From the NCBI GenBank assembly GCA_937920635.1, contig CAKZUE010000021.1:1-64000 (forward strand): 64,000 nucleotides of DNA, read 5' to 3'. Below the pieces are notes generated by a model. The model ran no database searches. It had not been told where the DNA came from and saw nothing but the letters and a program-made list of their open reading frames with translations. Both the position numbers and the translations under genes were made by a program. Shown piece by piece: positions 33,618 to 44,964 of this stretch. Numbering within the stretch: position 1 is the stretch's first letter; the number at the start of each line of letters is the position of its first letter. This DNA is from an uncultured Bryobacteraceae bacterium. GTDB taxonomy: Bacteria > Acidobacteriota > Terriglobia > Bryobacterales > Bryobacteraceae.

Positions 33618-35645
33618 TCAAGACTGTTGCCGCAGCAGGTGCGCCCGCAGCGCCGCCAGCAGCGCTGGCAGCGCGGATTCCAGATAGAAATGGCCGCCCG
33701 GGAATTCGGCGCGTTCAAAGTGGGCGGTGGTCTGCTCGCGCCAGGCATCGAGGTGCGCCGAAGTGACATTCGGATCCGCGTCGCCGCCGTAGGCGAAGAT
33801 GGGCACATCGAGCGGCGGCTCCGGTACATAGGCGTAGTGGCGGTACAGGCGCGCGTCGGCCAGCAGCGCCGGCAGCGCCAGCTTGAGCAGTTCGGGCTGG
33901 TTCAGCACGCTTGGCGGGAATCCCTCCAGGCGCCGCAATTCTTCGATGAAGTCGCGCAGGGACGGTTCGGGCGGCGGAACATGGTTCAGGCGGAACTGCG
34001 GAGCGCGCGCGCCGGAGACGTGCAGCGAGCGCGGAAGCGGCAGCCCGGCCCGGCGCAGCGCGCGCGTCAGTTCGAAAGCGATGCCCGCGCCCATGGAGTG
34101 TCCGAAGAAGGCGTACGGCGCGTTGAGGAACGGCCGGATCTGTTCGAGCAGCGCCTCGACCAGCGGCTGCATCCGCTCGAACGGGGGCTCCGATGCGCGC
34201 GATTCTCGCCCCGGCAGCCGCACCGGAACCACGAACGCCGCCTGCGCCAGCGGTTCGCTCCAGGCGCGGTAAGGAAGCGCGCCGCCGCCCGCCCAGGGAA
34301 AACAAAACAGCCGGAGCCTGTTTTCTGGCGCCGAGTGGATGGTGGTGAACCACGGGTGCGTGAGCGCAGGCTTGCCGGAGGCTTTTCGCGCAAGGCGCAG
34401 CGCGAGCAGCCGCCGCTTCTCCTCGCTGAGCAGAGGGCGAGGCGAGCCCGCCGTCGCCGCCTTTCTGGGCTTTTTCAGCAGGTCGAGCAGCGCATGTTCG
34501 AACGGCTCCACGGAGATCGACGCCGCATAGTCGAGAGCGGCGCGGCGGCTGGCGGCGGCGATCTCCTCCCAGTGGGCGCGGTCCGAGCTCAGCCGCTCCA
34601 GAATTCTTTGCCATGGCGCCACATCCTGCGGCGGCACCTCGGCCACCGGCACCATCGAAGCGTCCAGCGACGGCTGATAGCGCACGATCGGATTCACCCG
34701 CACCAGATACGGCACGCCCAGCTTGGCCTCGTGCAGCCCCCCGACGTCGGACGCCACCACCGGCACGCCGCGGCTCATCGCTTCCAGCACGATGCGCGAG
34801 CGCGCCTCCGCCCACACCGATGGAACCAGCATCACTCGCGTGCGGCGCAGCAGGTCGTCGATGTTGTCCACCCGCGGCAGCAACGTGATGTTCGGCACGC
34901 TTCGCAGCAGTTCCAGTTCCGCAGGGGTCGTGCCCCACGTCGGAATGGCGGCGAACTGCAATTGCGGCATCCGCCTGGCCAGTTCGAGGAAGATCGTGAT
35001 GCCCTTCACCGCGCAGGGATTCACCATCGAAACGAACTCGTTGTCGAAACGCCCCAGCAACGGGAACTCGGACCCCGGCTCCAGCAACGAGATGGGCACG
35101 TGAATCGCATCCAGCCCGCTCCACTCGCGCACATAGCCCGCCACGTAGTGGCTGACGCCGATGATCAGATCCGCCTGACGCAGGTTCTCCGTCTTGGCTG
35201 CGCTCACCATGGAGCTGTCCGGTCCGAACGGCACGGCGATGGTGGCGCGCACCAGATACACCACCCGGGCGCGCGGGTGGCGCACTGCCAGATCAAACAG
35301 GATCTGCCCCGGGTCGTCCGTGGAGGTGACGATAATGTCCGGGTCGAAGAAATCGACGCAGGACTGGAAGAACTGGCGCAGGTGCGGGCTTCGGGTCAGC
35401 ACGCGCACCTGCACGCCATTCAGGTCATATGCGAGGCTGTCAGCGTCCTCGCTTGTCCGGATCGAACGCGCGGCGAGTTCCTGCTTCAGTTCCGCATGCG
35501 AATTTTCGGAGAATTCGGGAACTCGCGTGACCACCAGCACGCTGTGCCCGCGCGCCGCCAATGCTTCCATCAACAGCCGGTTGCTTTTGTCGCCGCCGCC
35601 CAGGGCAGGGAAGTAGGTCGAGTTGTGGGCCAGCAGGACCTTCAT
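33618..35645 (-). CDS. GT4-type glycosyltransferase fused to a type II (NRPS/PKS) thioesterase domain
   Basis: N-terminal 'MKVLLAHNSTYFPALGGGDKSNRLLMEALAARGHSVLVVTR...TWGTTPAELELLRSVPNITLLPRVDNIDDLLRRTRVMLVPSVWAEARSRIVLEAMSRGVPVVASDVGGL'; C-terminal 'LRLFCFPWAGGGALPYRAWSEPLAQAAFVVPVRLPGRESR...YAFFGHSMGAGIAFELTRAL...GGDADPNV...FPGGHFYL' (TE with GHSMG). Confidence 0.92.
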   Translation of the reverse strand: MKVLLAHNSTYFPALGGGDKSNRLLMEALAARGHSVLVVTRVPEFSENSHAELKQELAARSIRTSEDADSLAYDLNGVQVRVLTRSPHLRQFFQSCVDFFDPDIIVTSTDDPGQILFDLAVRHPRARVVYLVRATIAVPFGPDSSMVSAAKTENLRQADLIIGVSHYVAGYVREWSGLDAIHVPISLLEPGSEFPLLGRFDNEFVSMVNPCAVKGITIFLELARRMPQLQFAAIPTWGTTPAELELLRSVPNITLLPRVDNIDDLLRRTRVMLVPSVWAEARSRIVLEAMSRGVPVVASDVGGLHEAKLGVPYLVRVNPIVRYQPSLDASMVPVAEVPPQDVAPWQRILERLSSDRAHWEEIAAASRRAALDYAASISVEPFEHALLDLLKKPRKAATAGSPRPLLSEEKRRLLALRLARKASGKPALTHPWFTTIHSAPENRLRLFCFPWAGGGALPYRAWSEPLAQAAFVVPVRLPGRESRASEPPFERMQPLVEALLEQIRPFLNAPYAFFGHSMGAGIAFELTRALRRAGLPLPRSLHVSGARAPQFRLNHVPPPEPSLRDFIEELRRLEGFPPSVLNQPELLKLALPALLADARLYRHYAYVPEPPLDVPIFAYGGDADPNVTSAHLDAWREQTTAHFERAEFPGGHFYLESALPALLAALRAHLLRQQS

Positions 35646-36853
35646 TGCGGGCGCCGCCTTTTCCGGAGCTCGCGCAGCAGCAGCGCCCGGCGCGCCTCGT
35701 CCAGCGGCTTCTTCTCGATGGCGGGCTGCGCGGGGGCGATGGGTTCGGCCGGCGCCGGCAGGGATTCCAGCAGTTTGCCAAAGGCATCCGGATCGATGGA
35801 AGAGACGAATGCCCGCGCAGCCTGCCGCGACCGCGCACTCTCCGCCCAATACTCGTCCTCATCCTCCAGCAGGCGCCGCAGCGCCGAAACCCAGGGTTCG
35901 ATGTCCTGCGGCGGCAGCATGGGGCGCGGCATATGCGCGGCGTCGAACTCCATCCGGTAGCCCTGCACGGGACGCACGGGGATGACGTAGCGGGTGCCGC
36001 GCTTGGCTTCGCACAGGCCGCCCGAGTCGGAGGAGATGACAGGAATCGCGCGCAGCATCGCCTCCATGACGATCAGCCCGAACCCTTCGTACCAGAGCGA
36101 GGGCATCAACAGCACCGAGCAGCGCCGCAGCGCGTCTTCGATGTCGGCCACGTTCTCGAGCAGCGAGACGTTGGGCAGCGCTGCCATCGCCGCCTCGTCC
36201 TCGGGCGTGGTGCCCCATCCCCGCAGGGCTTCGAACCGGACCTCCGGCAAAAGACGCGCCAGTTCAAGAAATATGGAAATTCCTTTGGCCGCGCAAGGGT
36301 TGATCATCAACACAGATTTGCGGGAGAAATCGGCCAGATCCGGCCAGGGCGGTTGGCCGTAAATCGGCGGATGGATCACTGCCGCTTCCCGCCCCAGGTG
36401 GGTCTGCACGTAAGCGGCCATGTGGCGTCCGATCACGACAACCGCCGCCGCCCCGCGCACGAGGTCTGCCGCGGGCGGGTCCGGATGCCAGGACTCGGGA
36501 CCGAAAGGCAGGAATTGCGGCGTGTGCGCGAGGTACACGAGCCGCCCGGGCGCCGTGCGAGCGGCTTCGCGCAGCAGCGTGTGAGAGAGGTCCTCGCTCG
36601 ATACCAGCACCCAATTGGGCTGCGTCTCCCGGATCAGCCTGCCCAGTTCTCCAGCGTGGAGCGAAAGCGACGGGACGGCGTGGATCCGGATGCCGCCGGA
36701 CGACGACACGCGCGGCTGCACGTCCGGCGACGATGCGGCGACGGTGCAGTGGTGTCCCGTTGCCGCCAGCCGCCGGAGCCATGCCAGGTTGGAGCGCGTG
36801 GATCCGCCCCGCGGGGGATCGTAGGAGGCGTTGGAAGCCAGCAGCAGCCGCAC
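35642..36853 (-). CDS. GT4-type glycosyltransferase
   Basis: 'MRLLLASNASYDPPRGGSTRSNLAWLRRLAATGHHCTV...VADIEDALRRCSVLLMPSLWYEGFGLIVMEAMLRAIPVISSDSGGLCEAKRG'; GTG start 2 nt after the upstream TAG; ATGA overlap with the next gene. Confidence 0.9.
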   Translation of the reverse strand: MRLLLASNASYDPPRGGSTRSNLAWLRRLAATGHHCTVAASSPDVQPRVSSSGGIRIHAVPSLSLHAGELGRLIRETQPNWVLVSSEDLSHTLLREAARTAPGRLVYLAHTPQFLPFGPESWHPDPPAADLVRGAAAVVVIGRHMAAYVQTHLGREAAVIHPPIYGQPPWPDLADFSRKSVLMINPCAAKGISIFLELARLLPEVRFEALRGWGTTPEDEAAMAALPNVSLLENVADIEDALRRCSVLLMPSLWYEGFGLIVMEAMLRAIPVISSDSGGLCEAKRGTRYVIPVRPVQGYRMEFDAAHMPRPMLPPQDIEPWVSALRRLLEDEDEYWAESARSRQAARAFVSSIDPDAFGKLLESLPAPAEPIAPAQPAIEKKPLDEARRALLLRELRKRRRPQ

Positions 36854-36855
36854 CG

Positions 36856-38982
36856 CTACTCCTCCTGTTGCATCTCGCGTTCGAGCAGTGCGCGCACTTC
36901 CTCGTCGGAAAGATTGGCGATCTCCGCCAGCAGCGCTTCGTATTCTTCCGGGTCGGCAGCGCCGAGCCGGCGGGCGTCGATCAGTGCCGCCAGCGAGCCG
37001 AGTGTCAGCGAGCCGGAGTAGACGTCATCGACGGCCAGCTCCACGCCGAATTCTTCCTTGACGCGCATCAGCAGCAGCACCGCCAGCAGCGAGTGTCCTC
37101 CCAGATCGAAGAAATTGGCATCGGAATTCAGAATAGGTTTTTGCAGAATCCCGGCCCAGATACGTGCCAGTTTTTCTTCGGTTTCAGAGGAAAAGGCCCG
37201 CCCGGTGGAAGCGCCCTGCGCCTCCGCCGCCTCGCGCCGCGACGCCGTCAGGATCTCCGCTGGGGTGCGCAGAGACCGGGCGATCTCGGCATACCCGCTG
37301 AAGCTGCGCGCAGCGGCGCGGATGGAAGCCGTTTCCCGCGGCGCGGCGGGCTGCAAGGAGGCGGGCGACCACCGCAACGTCTGGAGTTCCACCGCCGGGA
37401 AGCGGAATACCAGTCCCCCATTGTCCTCGTGCACCTGGCCGAAAGGGATGGATTCGAGGAACGCCCGCGCCGGCGCGTTGCGCGCCGTTGGAGTCAACGG
37501 CACCGTCACCGTATAGACGCCCTCGTCGAGAGCCAGTTCAGCGAGCCGCGCCAGGATCCGGTGCTCGACTCCGCGCCCCAGCACGCGGCAGGAGAGCATC
37601 AGCGCTTCGACGAACATTTCGTTGAGCCGCGTGAAAACAATCACCAGTCCCGTGAGTCCGTATTCTCCGAAGCGGTCGCTTACTTCTACGGTGAAGATCC
37701 GCACGCCGGGCGTCTGTTCCAGCGCCGCCAGTTCCGCCTCCGTGCGCCGGATGGTTGTGGTGTTGAACTGGTTGGTGCGCTGCGTGAGTTGCGCCGCGCG
37801 GGGCAGCCGCTCCGGCGCCAGGGGCTGCACGTCCACGCGGAGATTCAGCGAGGCGATGAATTCTTCCAGCGATGAGGCTGATTGCGCCGCCCGGGAGAAT
37901 TCGAGCGACTGCGCCATCAGCTCCGACCGCCGCCTGTCTTCTTCCGTCACGGACGGATGATCGAAAGCCCAGATGTGTGCCAGAAATTCCGGCAGATCCT
38001 CCAGATCCGAAGGCAATGCGATGGAGAGCACCTCCGGCGCCGATGAGGACACCTCGGCGCACTCCTTGGGGTTGTCGTCGAGGAAGATGAACGACTCCAG
38101 CCCCAGATTCAGCTCCGCGCCCAGCGAGGCGAGGTTCACCGGTTTCGGATTCCAGTCGATGCGCCAGGCGGCGAAATGCTCCAGCCGCAGCGGAAACTCG
38201 GGGTGCGCGTTGAAGGTCTCCAGCACGTCGCTGAAGTTGTTCTTGGAAGCGATCGCCAGCAGCATCCCCGCTTCGCGCTGCCGCAGCAGGAACTCCTGAA
38301 GATGCCGCCGCGGGGGATCGAGCACGACGCCTCCCGGACCGTCTTCCCCGCAGATGCCCCGCCAGAGCGTATTGTCCAGATCCACCGCCACCACTTTGTA
38401 AGGCGGCATCGACAATGTATGCGCCCGGCGGACGACGGCCGTCGCCAGGGCGGCGAACATCTCCTCCGTGTAGGGAATGCGCGCGATCTCCGCCGCCCGC
38501 GCATCATGCATCTGTGTGACCGGATACAAGGCGAGCCATTCTGAGTAGGGCAGGAAATGGAGCCCGGGTTGCGCGGCCAGCGCGCTGCGGAGCGCCGCTT
38601 CCGCCTCCGCCGCCGGCGCATTCTCCTCCTGCGGGCATAACACGAACAGGAGCGGAACGGTGAGCCGCGGCAAAGCCGAACGGACGGCGTCCGCCAGTTG
38701 GCCCGCATTGGCGATGGCTGCTTCCGCTATCAGAGAGCCATCCGTGCGCATCTGGGCCAGGTCGGAAGTCCGCAGCAGGATGACGTTCACGCCGCGGCGG
38801 TTGGAGGAGAAGACCGAGCCCGGATCCAGCAGCGTCTGGACGATCTGATTGTACGGGGCGTAAGCCGTCTCAAGGGGCATCTTCAGCCGGCGCGCCCAGA
38901 ATTGCAGAAAGGGTTCGATGGGTTCCGCCGTGAACGATGCGGCGATCGCGATGTGAAAAGGTTCCGAGGAGTGCGAAGTCAC
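36856..38982 (-). CDS. FkbH-like HAD-IIIC protein with C-terminal acyl/peptidyl carrier domain
   Basis: 'YKVVAVDLDNTLWRGICGEDG', 'LAIASKNNFSDVLETFNAHPEFPLRLEHFAAWRIDWNPKPVNLASLGAELNLGLESFIFLDDNPKECAEV', 'QRTNQFNTTTIRRTEAEL' (FkbH); C-terminal 'IWAGILQKPILNSDANFFDLGGHSLLAVLLLMRVKEEFGVELAVDDVYSGSLTLGSLAALI' (carrier domain, GGHS). Confidence 0.94.
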   Translation of the reverse strand: MTSHSSEPFHIAIAASFTAEPIEPFLQFWARRLKMPLETAYAPYNQIVQTLLDPGSVFSSNRRGVNVILLRTSDLAQMRTDGSLIAEAAIANAGQLADAVRSALPRLTVPLLFVLCPQEENAPAAEAEAALRSALAAQPGLHFLPYSEWLALYPVTQMHDARAAEIARIPYTEEMFAALATAVVRRAHTLSMPPYKVVAVDLDNTLWRGICGEDGPGGVVLDPPRRHLQEFLLRQREAGMLLAIASKNNFSDVLETFNAHPEFPLRLEHFAAWRIDWNPKPVNLASLGAELNLGLESFIFLDDNPKECAEVSSSAPEVLSIALPSDLEDLPEFLAHIWAFDHPSVTEEDRRRSELMAQSLEFSRAAQSASSLEEFIASLNLRVDVQPLAPERLPRAAQLTQRTNQFNTTTIRRTEAELAALEQTPGVRIFTVEVSDRFGEYGLTGLVIVFTRLNEMFVEALMLSCRVLGRGVEHRILARLAELALDEGVYTVTVPLTPTARNAPARAFLESIPFGQVHEDNGGLVFRFPAVELQTLRWSPASLQPAAPRETASIRAAARSFSGYAEIARSLRTPAEILTASRREAAEAQGASTGRAFSSETEEKLARIWAGILQKPILNSDANFFDLGGHSLLAVLLLMRVKEEFGVELAVDDVYSGSLTLGSLAALIDARRLGAADPEEYEALLAEIANLSDEEVRALLEREMQQEE

Positions 38983-39076: not shown

Positions 39077-40540
39077 CTACTCGAGCGGACGGAACCAGAT
39101 GTTGCGGAAGCGCATGGTGGTGTCCGGAGCGCCCGGGAATCCCGAGTGGTCCTGCAACAGCAGCGGTCCCGGCTCGCACATCGCGCGCCGGAAGCGCAGC
39201 GGGGCATGGTCCTGAACCAGCACGCCATTCAGCAACACCGTGACCGTGGCGGGTTCGACCTCCTGCCCGCGCGCATTGCAGACTGGCGCGTGATAGACGA
39301 TGTCGTAGGAAGACCACTCGCCGGGCTTGCGGGCGGCGTTGACCAGCGGCGGATGCTGGCCGTACACCGCGCCCAAGGTTCCGGTGGCGTAGGTCGGGTT
39401 CTGGTAGCTGTCCAGGATCTGGATTTCCGTGATTTTCTGCAAATAGACGCCAGAATTCCCCTTTAATTGCCCTTTTTGATCCGGCATTTCCGGCACCAGA
39501 AACTCCAGGTGGATCTGCGCGGACCGGAATTGCGCGCGCGAAACGGCGTCGCCCGCGCCCGTGCGGCAGGCCATTTCCCGGTTCTCGATCCGGCAGCCCG
39601 TGGGAGAGCCGTCCGGGCGGGTCCACGCGTCGAGGCTCGATCCGTCGAACAAGACCACCGCGTCGGAAGGCGGATCGCCGCTGGTTTTTCCCGGCGTCAC
39701 GGCGCGCGGCTCGGCCTGCGGCGGTTTGCCCCCTTCTGCCAGTTCGGGCGGCGCCGGCAGGGTGACATCTCCTGTCGCGGCCCACTCCGCGCCCCGCGTG
39801 AACGTCGTCACGAACACGGGCGTCTTCACTGCCGGGCCATCATGGCCGAGCGCGGTGACGAAGACGCGCCCGCTGCCGTAATTCACGGTCCATAGGATCG
39901 GGTGGTCCAGCCCGTCTCCCGGCGTCGGCTGCTTCGCCTTGCCCTGATAGAGCTTGTGATCGTCCCAGGCGGTGGCGAGCACGTGATAGGAATCCGCAGG
40001 CTGCCATTTCAGGTTCGCGTAGAGTTCGTCGTCCGGCTGCGTGAGCTTCGCGCGCAGCCCTCGCGTCACGGGATGGTTGCGGTCGCGGATGTCGAGATGG
40101 AAGGTGTGGGCGGGCGAGTGGTGGCCCTGATTCGGGCGCCAATTGCCGGCGCACAGCTTCTCGAACTCGGGCCAGTCCGGAAACGCGGCGATCGTGAAAT
40201 GGAAGACCACGAGCCCCTTCCCGGCACGCACGAAATCAAGCAGAGCCCCGCGCGTGCGCTCCGGCCAGGCGAACGCCGGATCACGGGCGCCGTAATAATT
40301 CAGCACCACCAGATCGTAGCCCTCCAGCGTTTCCGGCCCCGCGCCGCGGAAGTCTTCCGTCACGCGAACTTCGAAACGGCCCGTGTCTTCCAGCGCCTTG
40401 CGCAGCAGCGGCGAAACGATGCGCCAGTCGTGGCCGCCGATCACGCCGCCGGTTACCAGCAGCGCCCGGATCTTCGGCGGCGCGGCCGGGGGCTGCGCCA
40501 AGCCGGGCAACAGGAAAAGCAACAGTGCAAGCGCGCGCAT
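39077..40540 (-). CDS. ThuA-like plus DUF1080 (3-keto-disaccharide hydrolase/LamG-like) secreted protein
   Basis: '[40 protein letters not shown]...[10 protein letters not shown]' (ThuA) then '[31 protein letters not shown]...[60 protein letters not shown]' (DUF1080). Start at internal ATG 40540. Confidence 0.92.
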
Positions 40541-43758: not shown

Positions 43759-44964
43759 TCACAACGCCGCCAGCCTGCGGTGGAACAACAGCAGCCATGC
43801 CGCCGCGCAGGTGAGCAGAATTCCGCACGCGCCCACGACAAGGGAGATGCCGAAAACCGGCACAAGCGCGCCCACGGCGAGGCTTCCGAGCGGCATCCCG
43901 CCGCGGAACGCGATGTTGTAAAGGCTCATCACGCGCCCCCGCATCTCGTCCGTCGCGATCAGTTGCACCAGCGAGCTGAGCAGCGCGAAGCAGCCGATCA
44001 GCGCCATCCCGCCGAAAAACACGAACACAAGGCTCAGCCGGAAATCGCGCGAAAACGCGAACAGGCTTTCGAAGACGCCTAGCAGGATCAGCCCGATCAG
44101 GGCGTCCCGCCCCAGATGCGGTCTGCGCCCGCGCGCCGCCACCAGCAGCGCGCCCGTGATCGCTCCGGCTGCTTCCGTGGCCAGAAGCATGGTGTAGGTG
44201 GCCTCATTGCCTCCGAACACGTCTCGGGCGAACACGGGCAGGAACACGAGGATCGGAATCCCGAGGAAGGTGCACACGAAAGCCACCCAGATCAGGGGCA
44301 ACATCCCCGGGCGGCTGCGGATGAATCCAAGCCCCTGCTTCATCGAATCGACGACGGACTCGGCGGCGGCAGCAGGCACATAGCGGACGTGGATCAGCAA
44401 CAGCGATGTGATCACGGCGGCGTAAGAGAGGCCGTTCAGCCCGAAGCACCACGCTGCTCCCAGGTGCGTCAGCGCCAGCCCGCCAACCACTGGACCGATC
44501 ACGCGCGCCAGGTTGAACTGGATCGAGTTCATCGCGATCGCATTGGGCAGGTGGTCGCGCGGCACGAGCGATGGAATCAGCGATTGATACGCCGGTGCGC
44601 CGAACGCCTGAGCCGTGCCAACGATGAAAGACAGCGTCAGAATGTGCCAGACCCGCGCGTAGCCAAAAGCGAACAGGCCGGCCAGCGCGAACGCGCACGC
44701 CATCTGCACGAACTGCGACCCGACCAGCAGCCGCCTCCGGTCGACCCGGTCGGCGGCGACGCCCGCCACCAGCGCCAGCAGAAAGATCGGGATCTCGCCT
44801 AGAAAGCTGTCCAGCCCCAGGTAGAAGGCGGAGCCGGACAGTTGGAGAACCAACCAGCTCTGCGCGAGCTTCTGCATCCAGGTGCCGATGCTCGACACGA
44901 ACGCCCCCGACCACATCAGCCGGAAGTCGCGGTAGTGAAAAGCGGAAAAGAGGCGGCGGAGCAA
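43759..44964 (-). CDS. MFS transporter (EntS/MFS_3-like)
   Basis: 'RRLFSAFHYRDFRLMWSGAFVSSIGTWMQKLAQSWLVLQLSGSAFYLGLDSFLGEIPIFLLALVAGVAADRVDRRRLLVGSQ'; 12 hydrophobic segments. Confidence 0.92.
   Translation of the reverse strand: MLRRLFSAFHYRDFRLMWSGAFVSSIGTWMQKLAQSWLVLQLSGSAFYLGLDSFLGEIPIFLLALVAGVAADRVDRRRLLVGSQFVQMACAFALAGLFAFGYARVWHILTLSFIVGTAQAFGAPAYQSLIPSLVPRDHLPNAIAMNSIQFNLARVIGPVVGGLALTHLGAAWCFGLNGLSYAAVITSLLLIHVRYVPAAAAESVVDSMKQGLGFIRSRPGMLPLIWVAFVCTFLGIPILVFLPVFARDVFGGNEATYTMLLATEAAGAITGALLVAARGRRPHLGRDALIGLILLGVFESLFAFSRDFRLSLVFVFFGGMALIGCFALLSSLVQLIATDEMRGRVMSLYNIAFRGGMPLGSLAVGALVPVFGISLVVGACGILLTCAAAWLLLFHRRLAAL

Follow-up and report, generated by a model that had tools for sequence, protein, structure and literature searches.

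An FkbH–carrier, glycosyltransferase and thioesterase operon of Bryobacteraceae as a candidate stand-alone assembly line for glycosylated glycerate

The first 64,000 nucleotides of contig CAKZUE010000021.1 (contig 21 of assembly GCA_937920635.1, from an uncultured Bryobacteraceae bacterium; 4.15 Mb, 98% complete), called the window below, carry three adjacent minus-strand genes for an FkbH protein ending in a carrier domain, a family 4 glycosyltransferase (GT4), and a second GT4 fused to a thioesterase (TE). Loading of a glyceryl unit from 1,3-bisphosphoglycerate onto a carrier by FkbH is accepted chemistry (PMC7489565). The question raised by the locus is what such a loading protein makes together with two GT4s and a TE. 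The trio is very probably a dedicated carrier-dependent unit. It is fairly probable that its product is a small glycosylated glycerate or acyl-glycerate. The fuller proposal suggested by sequence comparison, that the operon is a stand-alone thiotemplate mini assembly line making a small glycosylated glycerate, is evenly poised. The genes and domains are placed as follows.

36856..38982, minus strand: FkbH–acyl carrier protein (FkbH-ACP), 708 aa, with an N-terminal domain, a HAD-IIIC phosphatase, a GNAT-like domain and a carrier domain (TIGR01686, PP-binding, alignment of 17 orthologues, predicted fold)
37441..38400, minus strand: FkbH domain, residues 195–514 (profile match and alignments)
36979..37176, minus strand: carrier (PP-binding) domain, residues 603–668, with serine 631 in LGGHSL (profile match and alignments)
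35642..36853, minus strand: GT4a, 403 aa, EX7E motif E256/E264, starting 2 nt past the FkbH-ACP stop
33618..35645, minus strand: GT4b–thioesterase fusion (GT4b-TE), 675 aa, with an ATGA overlap with the GT4a stop
34476..35645, minus strand: GT4b domain, about residues 1–390, EX7E motif E280/E288 (profile, alignment, predicted fold)
33642..34313, minus strand: type II-like thioesterase domain, residues 445–668, triad S517/D624/H652 (PF00975, 149 bits; RifR alignment; fold)

The preliminary description of the window had claimed three coupled genes encoding an FkbH protein with a GGHS carrier, a GT4, and a GT4 with a GHSMG thioesterase. The positions, the junctions and the domain assignments were all confirmed. 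On the minus strand, the FkbH-ACP/GT4a junction reads GAG TAG CG GTG CGG (stop, 2 nt, GTG start), and the GT4a/GT4b-TE junction reads CGC AATGAAG, in which the ATGA is shared by stop and start. The three genes are translationally coupled. A promoter and terminator scan gave no signal above chance. The FkbH protein is a full-length member of its family, with 297 bits against TIGR01686 (cut-off 146.65). Its C-terminal carrier domain is peptidyl carrier protein (PCP)-like and matches PF00550 with 55 bits. Among the 17 aligned orthologues, D201, D203 and T205 of the HAD D-x-D-x-T motif, C465 of the SCR motif and S631 of the carrier are invariant. The carrier serine and the HAD active site, which the preliminary description had allowed might be non-functional, are thus intact. 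A GT4 domain was found in both of the other proteins by profile search, and their EX7E glutamates and the TE triad are also invariant in alignments.

The predicted structures (mean predicted local distance difference test score 83–86, predicted template modelling score about 0.6) are reliable for the domain folds and not for their mutual arrangement. The FkbH protein shows a BF1531 (3slr)-like part, then a GNAT-like fold, then carrier helices. Both glycosyltransferases (GTs) are ordinary GT-B GT4 folds resembling MshA, BshA and PimA; fold and EX7E motif together place them with the retaining GT4 enzymes. In GT4b-TE the GT-B fold is followed by a helical linker and a BorB/RifR/RedJ-like thioesterase. 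The TE domain was aligned with RifR at E=8e-45, catalytic triad included. By these comparisons it belongs to the RifR/BorB/RedJ type II class, which is more in keeping with hydrolytic release than with acyl transfer. Unlike type II thioesterases acting in trans, it forms one protein with GT4b, both in the window and in the relatives that were aligned.

Is there a larger assembly line for which the trio could work? None of the ketosynthase (KS), adenylation (A) and condensation (C) domains lies at the trio locus, as had been described, and the finding reaches beyond the window. The single ketosynthase match genome-wide is a FabF-sized open frame of 428 aa, and condensation domains were found neither in the window genome nor in four genus mates; flanking KS, A or C modules, which would have spoken against a stand-alone unit, are therefore not indicated. 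The window genome has one FkbH copy. The operon and its near neighbours have no dehydrogenases, O-methyltransferase or FabH-like enzyme of a methoxymalonyl-ACP or tetronate cassette, and FkbG/I/J/K-like genes are absent from the operon. A protein with ThuA and 3-keto-disaccharide hydrolase domains (39077-40500, minus strand) ends 94 nt upstream of FkbH, and similar genes lie directly upstream of FkbH in three other loci (L052, L115, L123). GFO/IDH/MocA and 3-keto-disaccharide hydrolase proteins were not used as trio partners because both families are common across the group.

The conservation of the trio was examined at two scales. In a relatives' search of 60 genomes, the window family comprised 23 genomes with GT4-TE and 14 without it. 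All of the 23 also carry FkbH, and 16 of them have no condensation domain. Among the 14, only G036 has FkbH, with condensation domains on the same contig. Across 85,462 species genomes, a scan picked up 89 loci, almost all of them under the names Bryobacterales, Solibacter or Acidobacteria, and 80 were kept. Because the scan searched with GT4b-TE patterns drawn from the family, more distant versions in other phyla may have escaped it; in the phylum-wide search, only a small number of candidates was scored in each genome. FkbH, ACP, GT4a, GT4b and TE follow in this order on one strand in 64 of the 80 loci. Of the remaining 16, many are truncated where a contig ends and a few differ genuinely (e.g. 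L116, L117, L121, L093, L103). The expectation that the three genes keep together outside polyketide synthase (PKS) and non-ribosomal peptide synthetase (NRPS) clusters is borne out by these counts. The genes flanking the trio differ between lineages. The within-genus ratio of nonsynonymous to synonymous substitution rates (dN/dS) was 0.12–0.20 for GT4a and FkbH and 0.10–0.12 for GT4-TE. Considering the order kept in 64 loci and these ratios, the arrangement is more than chance. GT4a and GT4b form one clade each, and the branch separating them has full support; therefore, both paralogues are old and both were kept. In G033, FkbH and GT4b-TE lie on different contigs (C82, C102), both retained. 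Three operon-bearing entries titled Arcobacter, Phycisphaerales and Nevskia soli (L044, L114, L122) are likely misnamed or misbinned.

Gene fusions and recurrent partners add to this picture. GT4a is joined to GT4b-TE in one protein in 19 loci spread over several tree branches. Giant FkbH-GT-GT-TE fusions were considered for L036/L077 (1530 aa) and L106 (1333 aa) and rejected: the FkbH reading frame does not continue into their N-terminal extensions, and therefore the fusion there is GT4a-GT4b-TE only. A 2571-aa open reading frame in L128 was an artefact of the gene caller, and an ACP-GT4a fusion does not exist among the loci examined. In 14 loci, TE is followed directly, and on its own strand, by a gene for an Sfp-type phosphopantetheinyl transferase (PPTase); in most of them the gap to the TE match is about 150 bp or less, or the two overlap. 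Nine loci have a downstream D-2-hydroxyacid dehydrogenase gene, close to no single named subfamily. In many loci the trio has an EntS-like major facilitator superfamily (MFS) gene as its immediate neighbour, in convergent or divergent orientation. The candidate counterpart of this MFS gene in the window is the following.

43759..44964, minus strand: EntS-like MFS_3 exporter, a putative partner, 5 kb upstream in the window genus

The MFS proteins adjoining the trio in other genera share only 22–30% identity with that of the window; the association across genera is suggestive of an export partner, not proof of one orthologous exporter. Surface-polysaccharide (exopolysaccharide or lipopolysaccharide) genes, that is polymerase, flippase or ABC exporter and sugar-phosphate transferase, were not present among the inspected recurrent flanking clusters.

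A further partner is found in two loci, in which a protein of 1817–1857 aa with a fatty acyl-AMP ligase (FAAL), ordered FAAL-ACP-C-FkbH-ACP, is encoded directly upstream of GT4a and GT4b-TE.

L094:3093-8666: FAAL-ACP-C-FkbH-ACP protein
L110:3231-8684: FAAL-ACP-C-FkbH-ACP protein

In an assembly-line module test, C modules accompanied the trio in these two loci only. They likely represent an acyl-glycerate glycoside pathway. In vioprolide and corramycin assembly, a FAAL-ACP-C-FkbH front end esterifies a fatty acid to glycerate (PMC10099666, PMC8949500). Because the front end of L094 and L110 has this architecture, the trio can serve as the tail of an assembly line; most species have it as a complete line by itself. 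The two loci form the first branch in the GT4b tree and are internal in the GT4a tree; the FAAL-C form was not accepted as ancestral because the trees disagree. The PPTase, EntS-like MFS and FAAL-ACP-C partners speak for the release of a small molecule and not for a glycan decoration.

Related arrangements occur beyond Bryobacterales. In another Acidobacteriota family, a GT2 gene is followed by a 2963-aa GT4-C-A-PCP-C-A-PCP-TE protein (L124:8654-18561), whose N-terminal GT4 domain is 38–40% identical to GT4a and GT4b. At L130:6055-8988, FkbH-ACP-TE is a single 977-aa protein adjoined by a small VOC-like gene. An uncharacterised plasmid cluster of Streptomyces sp. NBC_00441 (NZ_CP107920.1, 70-95 kb; L126:650-19908) has FkbH-ACP (38% identity to that of the trio over 92%), GT4 (39%) and TE as separate genes, together with an ACP, a condensation protein, GT1s, a GH38 mannosidase, an MFS pump and nucleoside diphosphate (NDP)-sugar genes. 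These three cases provide separate evidence that a single kind of pathway unites FkbH-ACP, GT4s of this type and TE. Judging by H2/H18, a near copy of the Streptomyces cluster is present in NBC_00209. Some GT4 relatives keep other company: GT4b paralogues without TE are followed by an FkbM-type methyltransferase gene at L116:7716-12194, where FkbH-ACP is present and GT4a absent, and at L117:4121-6254; and a Niveispirillum GT4 (34–35% identical) lies beside a protein with ATP-grasp and GNAT parts, with no FkbH nearby (L127:9992-13229). An Aquisphaera plasmid FkbH protein is located among exopolysaccharide genes.

What these sequence comparisons show directly is a conserved unit with intact active sites, under selection, with fusions and with carrier-linked partners in relatives. 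From it we infer a substrate, the sequence of the steps, glycosylation on the carrier, the kind of sugar, hydrolytic release and export. A PPTase would convert the carrier domain at the C-terminus of FkbH-ACP to its holo form. The FkbH domain would then take glyceryl from 1,3-bisphosphoglycerate, strip the phosphate, pass the acyl group via C465 and load S631. GT4a and then GT4b would put sugars on the hydroxyl(s) of the carrier-bound glyceryl, the second sugar being attached either to the first or to the other hydroxyl. The TE fused to GT4b would hydrolyse the thioester to give a free glycosylated glycerate, and the EntS-like MFS pump would export it in many species. In the L094/L110 variant, the FAAL-ACP-C module would acylate the glyceryl first, and an acylated glycoside would result. 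Sugar transfer while the acyl group is carrier-bound falls just short of an even balance; it is proposed because a GT is fused to TE and, elsewhere, to NRPS modules, and because the carrier lacks another use. That the GTs are the elongation steps of a thiotemplate line, two GT4s acting on a tethered acyl group and a GT-fused TE releasing a glycosyl-glycerate, all without KS, A or C domains, is put forward tentatively.

Several points weigh against this scheme. The window genome and each of the four genus mates have one PF01648 match, and AcpS is the only PPTase detectable in them. Neither a relative's Sfp-type sequence nor a profile search gave an Sfp-type match in the window genus. PCP-like carriers usually need an Sfp-type PPTase, and AcpS is not their usual enzyme. 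Either the window carrier is modified by AcpS, or its PPTase is too divergent for detection. The distance of the MFS gene in the window genus is a further point, and RifR-type TEs are often editing enzymes. Glycerate as the substrate is carried over from the FkbH family, of which some members may load other C3 acids. The GTs could also act on free glycerate glycosides after release, on a lipid or on a glycan.

The last of these acceptors leads to the proposal of the preliminary description, a carrier-dependent glycan or glycolipid decoration. Here the TE would serve as an acyltransferase, passing glyceryl from the ACP to the sugar of a short glycan that the GTs assemble on a lipid or a free acceptor. 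The fusion of TE with a GT, the ordinary GT4 folds and the Aquisphaera FkbH protein among exopolysaccharide genes fit it. However, conserved surface-polysaccharide genes were not seen near the trio, whose flanks vary, the TE resembles type II hydrolases, and the FAAL-ACP-C front end and the GT4-NRPS fusion put glyceryl and GT within assembly lines. The conserved, dedicated carrier unit outside PKS/NRPS clusters was retained from that proposal, and the transfer of a C3 unit onto a glycan was not; the decoration is possible but less favoured than a small-molecule assembly line, and we consider it unlikely. Glycosylation may instead follow release, FkbH-ACP and TE making free (or acylated) glycerate or another acid, the GTs acting in solution and the linkage reflecting co-regulation only. 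The FkbH-ACP-TE protein of L130 has no GT, the genes are on separate contigs in G033, and glucosylglycerate is made elsewhere by a synthase and a phosphatase from free phosphoglycerate. On the other hand, carrier loading merely for hydrolysis would be wasteful because free glycerate is available, the GT-TE fusion puts release after or with glycosylation, and the GT4 of L124 is joined to NRPS modules. This explanation, too, is unlikely.

Two further explanations have far less in their favour. Supply of glyceryl- or methoxymalonyl-ACP to a PKS or NRPS elsewhere in the genome, the normal role of an FkbH-ACP (PMC7489565), was rejected for the window genome because its only KS is FabF-sized and condensation domains are absent; the genus mates without condensation domains and the lack of FkbG/I/J/K-like genes also make it extremely improbable. 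That the operon is a non-functional relic left over from a larger FAAL-C-FkbH NRPS cluster would agree with the larger form in L094 and L110 and their first branching in the GT4b tree. However, the low dN/dS and the invariant active sites argue against lost function, and the internal place of these loci in the GT4a tree means that the larger form is not clearly ancestral. A relic is thus very improbable.

How does the proposed assembly line compare with known systems? In the FAAL-ACP-C-FkbH-T modules of vioprolide and corramycin, FkbH and a carrier likewise load glycerate, and L094 and L110 have the full order. The window protein differs in lacking FAAL-ACP-C and in being followed by two GT4s and a TE rather than A-domain modules, in a genome with no condensation domain. 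The FkbH proteins of tetronate and methoxymalonyl-ACP pathways share the HAD and SCR cysteine motifs and a carrier partner, but their ACP stands alone, and the operon of the window has neither their accessory enzymes nor a PKS. RifR, BorB and RedJ share the fold and triad of the TE, which sits behind a GT4 domain in a genome holding no PKS or NRPS to edit. The banyaside/suomilide pathway also combines FkbH-loaded glycerate (loading module of BslA) with a glycosyltransferase, BslX, which was proposed to act after peptide release (PMC13122637); the trio has no peptide module. The Streptomyces NBC_00441 cluster brings together FkbH-ACP, a related GT4, TE, ACP and MFS, but as separate genes with the additional enzymes listed above. 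The predicted product class, glycosylated glycerate, is that of GpgS/GpgP. GpgS/GpgP synthesis is carrier-free, uses free 3-phosphoglycerate and employs a GT family different from GT4. A literature search, with subscription journals and preprints mostly outside its reach, found no described stand-alone system of FkbH-ACP, two GT4s and TE. Within the literature searched, the parts of the trio are each already known, and their joining as a stand-alone unit appears undescribed.

Most trio-bearing Bryobacteraceae genomes have no condensation domain, and rule sets that need KS, A or C domains would likely pass the trio over. Its order is kept across a family of soil and freshwater bacteria, and for this widespread soil group, of which few members are in culture, it offers a candidate product that can be tested. 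Should the GTs act on the carrier, the logic of assembly lines would reach beyond C–C, amide and ester bonds to glycosidic bonds. If this is true, small glycosides of an unknown class would be made by carrier-tethered glycosylation throughout a bacterial family.

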